A stretch of 64,000 bases of DNA from Caldisphaera lagunensis DSM 15908 (lineage in GTDB: Archaea > Thermoproteota > Thermoprotei_A > Sulfolobales > Acidilobaceae), in assembly GCF_000317795.1 (NCBI RefSeq), contig NC_019791.1, positions 1,364,001 through 1,428,000 of the forward strand. The letters are read 5' to 3'. Shown piece by piece: positions 17,826-17,858 of the stretch. The position numbers and the translations under genes were made by a program. The notes beneath the pieces are model-generated. The model was given only the letters and a program-made list of their open reading frames with translations, searched no databases and was not told where the DNA came from. Each line of letters starts with the position of its first letter. Position 1 is the stretch's first letter.

Positions 17826-17858
17826 AAAGCCTCGCCCTTTAGGGCGGGGAGGAAGTCA
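17826..17858. mobile_element. Orphan IS200/IS605-type end hairpin (relic or solo omega-RNA-like element)
   Basis: CCTCGCCC (17830-17837), loop TTTA, GGGCGGGG (17842-17849) makes an 8-bp stem with one G-U pair, flanked by AAAG before and AGGAAGTCA after. From memory this is the hairpin and flank that closes many IS200/IS605/IS1341-type elements downstream of tnpB in archaea, and forms the 3' part of their omega RNA. No tnpA or tnpB reading frame is near; the flanking genes are an intact methylthiotransferase and NAD kinase. It is either a remnant after deletion or a minimal non-autonomous copy. GC content is far above the surroundings. Confidence 0.6.

Follow-up and report, generated by a model that had tools for sequence, protein, structure and literature searches.

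In the window, by which we mean the whole stretch of 64,000 nucleotides that was analysed, a GC-rich hairpin lies in the gap of 229 bp that separates a methylthiotransferase gene from an NAD kinase gene (Table 1). It is the only stem of 8 bp with a 4-nt loop and at least six G-C pairs on the forward strand of the window, which has a GC content of 31%, and ten dinucleotide shuffles of the window contained no stem of this class. The hairpin is real and goes beyond chance, and the 8-bp stem, TTTA loop and tail reported in a preliminary description are thus borne out, as is the position between two intact genes at a locus that has no tnpB. The span given there (17826-17858) covers the hairpin, but the conserved tail extends one base further, to G17859. 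The hairpin 29-mer has no further copy in the window at up to three mismatches, and a second AGGAAGTCA (at 11603) is plain sequence without such a hairpin. The unit measures at most 50 bp and contains no ORF; it is therefore non-coding and carries no transposase gene. Neither tnpA nor tnpB is found at the locus, and the layout of a full IS200/IS605 element, with genes between two hairpins, is thus absent. Elsewhere in the window, an archaeal RNase P RNA gene (Rfam RF00373; 19244-19554, reverse strand) is present, and species of the genus differ in where it lies with respect to the NAD kinase and miaB-like genes. Two tRNA matches (53560-53666, reverse strand, 107 nt; 57091-57195, forward strand, 105 nt) have lengths that suggest introns.

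Table 1. Features at the hairpin locus (window positions) and further copies of the hairpin core in the genome (genome positions).
Feature	Position	Strand	Remark
Radical-SAM/UPF0004/TRAM gene (MiaB-type methylthiotransferase)	16380..17723	+	intact; 5' flank
TTAC, putative left cleavage/target tetranucleotide	17806..17809	+	uncertain in the window copy; in relatives, nearly all clean copies follow a TTAC
Left-end remnant CATAAACTGTGGGCAG	17810..17825	+	exceeds the consensus AACTG by about 11 nt, probably through two small insertions
AAAG, left-end-type guide tetranucleotide	17826..17829	+	at the stem foot
Hairpin CCTCGCCC-TTTA-GGGCGGGG	17830..17849	+	loop TTTA, 17838-17841
Stem CCTCGCCC / GGGCGGGG	17830-17837 / 17842-17849	+	8 pairs, one T-G
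Right-end tail AGGAAGTCAG	17850..17859	+	ends in TCAG, the putative right cleavage site
NAD kinase gene	17953..18804	+	intact; 3' flank
Degenerate tnpB element (one of A and B), ending in core CCCTTTAGGGCGGGGAGG	genome, 318869	+	
Degenerate tnpB element (the other of A and B), ending in core CCCTTTAGGGCGGGGAGG	genome, 86787	-	
Second orphan hairpin (locus L011, G000:C1)	genome, 429502	-	

The genome (1,546,846 bp in a single contig) contains four copies of the hairpin core including that of the window. Two of them end the degenerate tnpB elements A and B, in which the core is preceded by the TNB domain (PF07282) at a distance of 120-140 bp and the reading frames are broken. Elements A and B are 95% identical across their left 600 bp and have a common left end, TTGAT or ATGAT followed by A.AAAGAACAACAAACCTCGCC. 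In the second orphan hairpin, a left end (TTGAT followed by ATAAGAGATCAACAAACCTC) is joined straight to the right-end hairpin and tail. This left end equals that of elements A and B (TTGAT..CAACAAACCTC), and the copy clearly reads as a TTGAT-type left end fused to the right-end hairpin that ends these elements. A third, stop-split tnpB adjoins a tnpA gene at 1273-1274 kb; this tnpA, the only one found in the genome, has lost about 36 residues and shows frame changes. Hence, all three tnpB genes of the genome are disrupted. The tail in the window is nearly identical to the right-end tails of elements A and B and of elements in relatives. The proposed IS200/IS605 origin of the hairpin therefore holds, as the same hairpin and tail end both the two degenerate tnpB elements and TnpA+TnpB elements of relatives, and the suggested search for the motif and for tnpB also returned many copies in relatives.

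Each end of an IS608 element carries a hairpin to which the transposase binds, and the cleavage and guide tetranucleotides of IS608 are TTAC/AAAG and TCAA/GAAT. The general principle is that cleavage sites are chosen by guide tetranucleotides located 5' of each stem (PMC6006769). Autonomous elements comprising an intact Y1 transposase and a tnpB gene exist in relatives within the order. Their left ends read TTACAAC[CT]GAAAG-hairpin-ATG.. and their right ends GGAAC-hairpin-GGAGGTCAG, as exemplified by the element of genome G119, which has the left end TTACAACCGAAAG-hairpin-ATGAG.. and the same right end, while the left end of the G137 element reads TTACAACTGAAAG-CCTCGCCCTTTAGGGCGGGGA-TGG. The core, found in 22 of 40 genomes (own genome and relatives), occurs in two context classes. 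True right ends (..GGGAAC-hairpin-GGAGGTCAG) have tnpB upstream in several cases; the units that we call solos read TTAC-AACTGAAAG-hairpin-GGAGGTCAG and have unrelated flanks.

The clean form of the solo is TTAC followed by AACTGAAAGCCTCGCCCTTTAGGGCGGGGAGGAGGTCAG, that is 39 bp after TTAC. This 43-mer (TTAC included) is present in 74 copies in 20 of the 214 genomes of the order, in none of which the reversed pattern was found. A gap pattern with a free stem yielded 36 solos in four genomes and none when reversed. Among 84,980 species genomes, a set that may omit the genome of the window itself, the degenerate 43-mer matches only records of Desulfurococcales, Desulfurococcaceae and Ignisphaera. 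Left ends of longer elements have the same start as solos, followed by GGCGGGGATG..AAAGCTTATAA. G030 contains 31 left-end-type sites (about 21 solos and 10 others) and 4 TnpB domains, and about half of the 39 left-end-type sites read in G113, which has 5 TnpB domains, are solos; an automatic tail rule assigned these classes, which may be wrong for a few degenerate sites, and a single site of G113 was read twice. In both genomes, left ends continue with ATG.. and solos end in GGAGGTCAG, and their hairpin variants match. Such variants are common to the left ends and solos of one genome (e.g., GCTCTTCAGGGCGGGGA in G113). The common variants together with the split tails show that a solo is a left-end hairpin with a right-end tail, joined within the repeat common to both hairpins.

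Solos were also seen in unusual surroundings. One solo of G030 (L115/L291; G030:C1:983458-983500) is located within an older solo-like hairpin, in the TTTAC loop of the latter, indicating a nested insertion, and the older hairpin has a different, still complementary stem (CTTGTCA/TGACAAG), indicating stem covariation. Solos also occur on contigs classed as viral (L240, L242, L244, L245), and two near-identical TGAT-type solos are located on one viral-classed contig of 48.8 kb.

To find empty sites, the joined flanks of solos were compared with the genomes of sister species, one genome per species. Two clean empty sites were obtained, for a solo of G100 and a solo of G099, both compared with G101. 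In both comparisons exactly 39 bp are inserted directly after TTAC, there is no duplication and the flanks are nearly identical. Absence with less exact borders was seen in three further comparisons (G045 with G013, G045 with G022, and G124 with G125), and one decayed solo is common to G101 and G099. The L140 site in G099 was not counted as empty because a displaced solo is present there, and no clean empty site was obtained for L144, a solo within an MFS-type gene of G119, because the gene carries further changes.

At the locus of the window, the nearest relative (NAD kinase 86% identical) has the same gene order and lacks the hairpin in the gap. The hairpin is thus not conserved at this position; the preliminary description had proposed to test whether related strains lack it there. 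As the gap of this relative is also shorter around the hairpin position and lacks more than the element, the boundary of the insertion is not exact to the base. In another species of the genus, an internally deleted IS605-type element lies shortly upstream of the NAD kinase orthologue (L078, at about 10700 in G002:C59); it is independent of the window copy and has a right end of the same type.

Directly 5' of the stem of the window copy, CAGAAAG matches CTGAAAG, the left-end guide of TTAC-targeting IS605 elements. The 9-mer preceding the stem (GGCAGAAAG) ranks among the highest 0.33% of all 9-mers in the window by a matrix of solos and left ends, but only among the highest 3.3% by a right-end matrix. 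A TTAC lies 20 nt from the stem, compared with a consensus distance of 9, and one possible parse (TTAC-CATA-AACTG-TGGGCAG-AAAG) would give the consensus interrupted by two short insertions. The window copy has the right terminus and the left guide but only a partial match to the outer left terminus, whereas the arrangement of both termini round one palindrome is clear in the consensus unit and in the copy at 429502. The hairpin had been described as a lone right end. The tail is indeed a right end, but the stem is preceded by a left-end guide, and judged by its bases the window copy appears to be not a plain right end but a left end fused to a right end with one hairpin.

We consider it probable (at roughly 85%) that the window hairpin is a degenerate terminal-only derivative of a transposon of the IS200/IS605 family (IS605/IS1341-type, TTAC-targeting). 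The ancestral element would have had a left end of the form TTAC followed by AACTGAAAG-hairpin... and a right end of the form ...GGAAC-hairpin-GGAGGTCAG, and between them tnpB, either alone or together with tnpA. A direct repeat (CCTCGCC..GGCGGGGA) is common to both subterminal hairpins, and a deletion between the repeats would remove the core and leave one hairpin with the left-end guide on its 5' side and the right-end tail on its 3' side. Such a deletion might arise by repeat slippage or recombination. The hybrid anatomy recurs in relatives, where presence and absence are precise after TTAC. Against this explanation stand the 5' side of the window copy, which departs from the consensus and in which TTAC could be a chance occurrence (it is expected in 11% of random 30-mers), the inexact insertion boundary at the window locus, and the own genome, in which no clean TTAC-type left end is found (0 matches) and the parent element is thus not present. 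Nevertheless, and its approximately 11 extra 5' bases notwithstanding, we infer that the window copy belongs to the TTAC class; the matrix scores, the TTAC parse and the hairpin-free gap of the relative allow it to be regarded with good, though not complete, confidence as a degenerate member. The window copy has no evident function, and it cannot move on its own since the sole tnpA found in the genome is broken. Of the earlier suggestions, those of a scar and of a minimal mobilisable unit find support, once the lone right end is corrected to a fusion of left and right end. Because like units are scattered in related heat-loving archaea, the hairpin is probably a footprint of mobile DNA of a known type rather than a new guide RNA, and core-deleted IS605 units account for many such hairpins in several genomes of the order.

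A refinement of the core-deletion explanation, not exclusive with it, is that a TnpA (Y1) acting in trans moves the 39-bp fused hairpin itself, which would make it a minimal mobile element similar to REPs, and that the copy in the window arrived in this way. We regard this as tentative and somewhat doubtful. Perfect copies of the 43-mer are found in three genera that belong to three families, the two clean polymorphic sites show solo versus empty and never a full element, and G030 and G113 hold more solos than tnpB genes. An antisense solo splits the tnpB gene of the IS605 element of G137 (G137:C18, L233 1518-1557), according to an alignment with the G119 element, while the tnpA gene of the interrupted element is still intact; the nested solo at L115 likewise favors movement of the unit, as do the 52-bp terminal-only palindrome-associated elements (PATEs) of Haloquadratum, which are also strain-specific insertions (PMC3119063). 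However, insertion of a full element followed by repeated deletion yields an identical pattern, and a Y1 transposase was not detected in the solo-rich genomes G030, G045, G113, G068 and G040. Movement in these genomes would thus need an outside transposase, for which the solo-bearing viral contigs are one possible route. Moreover, the unit is devoid of the right-end guide (GAAC/GAAT), by which the right cleavage site is selected in canonical IS608 chemistry. If the unit does move, the 39-bp fusion would be among the smallest DNA transposons known, with one hairpin serving both cleavage sites, and would have its own population in Desulfurococcales-type archaea and virus-like contigs. The clean empty sites make a single hairpin as transposition substrate directly testable in vitro.

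The preliminary description had also raised the possibility of an orphan omega RNA, in which the hairpin together with the downstream DNA would guide a TnpB in trans. Although tnpB elements have the same hairpin and tail at their 3' end and the genome contains tnpB genes, this appears very unlikely, since all three genes are disrupted and the stem is preceded by left-end rather than right-end bases. Furthermore, true right ends have upstream 7-mers in common (AGATGTA in 16 and CGAATAG in 11 of 41, counts that reflect sharing and not independent events as some of these right ends stem from overlapping genome relatives), whereas solos have no common upstream stretch (top 7-mer in 5 of 69). The conserved scaffold upstream of the terminal hairpin of an omega RNA is replaced by left-end-type sequence at the window copy. 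A lone omega-RNA-like hairpin is not evidence for an orphan guide RNA. A pseudoknot between the GGAGGTC tail and upstream ACCTCC-type sequence showed no clear enrichment over shuffles in either right ends or solos; the pairing test was negative in both classes and did not serve as evidence. Less probable still is an unrelated RNA hairpin such as a terminator or NAD kinase leader, which the position between two co-directional genes might suggest but which is at odds with the lack of a T-run terminator at the hairpin and of an Rfam family at the locus, the absence from the same locus of the closest relative and the occurrence of almost the same sequence at unrelated places in many genomes; folding of the whole gap as RNA gave no signal above shuffles, and a scan for bacterial-type promoters and terminators gave nothing useful.

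The core-deleted unit can be compared to several known systems. With the single-strand transposons of the IS200/IS605 family (IS608/ISDra2-like), it shares the subterminal hairpin type, a guide tetranucleotide at the stem foot and insertion directly after a short target (TTAC or TTGAT) without duplication. In contrast to these elements, the solo has a single hairpin and no genes, and it retains the left-end guide and both outer termini while the right-end guide is missing. The omega RNA 3' end of TnpB systems resembles it in the right-end hairpin and tail, but not in the conserved upstream sequence. With REP/REPIN sequences and their RAYT (TnpA_REP), the solo shares the short single hairpin, the 5' tetranucleotide, the many dispersed copies (PMC8266576, PMC6006769) and a related Y1 enzyme class. 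REPs have GTAG and a domesticated transposase, whereas the solo has AAAG and the termini of both IS cleavage sites, and no linked RAYT was found.

Units of like anatomy are known from Haloquadratum walsbyi, in which repeat-mediated deletion between the near-terminal palindromes of IS605-type elements generated the 52-bp terminal-only PATEs, and six strain-specific insertions of one short terminal-only PATE led to the suggestion that mobility is possible (PMC3119063, published in 2011). Like these PATEs (PMC3119063), the consensus unit consists of one palindrome with both termini and lacks a target duplication. The palindrome is related to IS605-type ends in the Thermoproteota as well (elements A and B; TnpA+TnpB elements of relatives), and insertion without duplication is seen for the consensus unit in sister species, with an inexact boundary at the window site. 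The Thermoproteota unit differs in that it belongs to another phylum, is shorter (39 bp after TTAC), has a TTAC target and an AAAG guide, and has copies across families, of which the window copy is degenerate. Terminal-only PATEs are thereby extended from haloarchaea to Thermoproteota, with clean empty sites. The open-access literature that we searched contains no description of such units in Desulfurococcales, which is weak evidence of absence. Longer internally deleted, PATE-like elements were observed in G013 (L092, L098, L102, L103, L110), where a family of about 240 bp has a hairpin at each end, the left hairpin being followed by ATATGAGCGTTTATAGGC and the right end lying about 200 bp further on.
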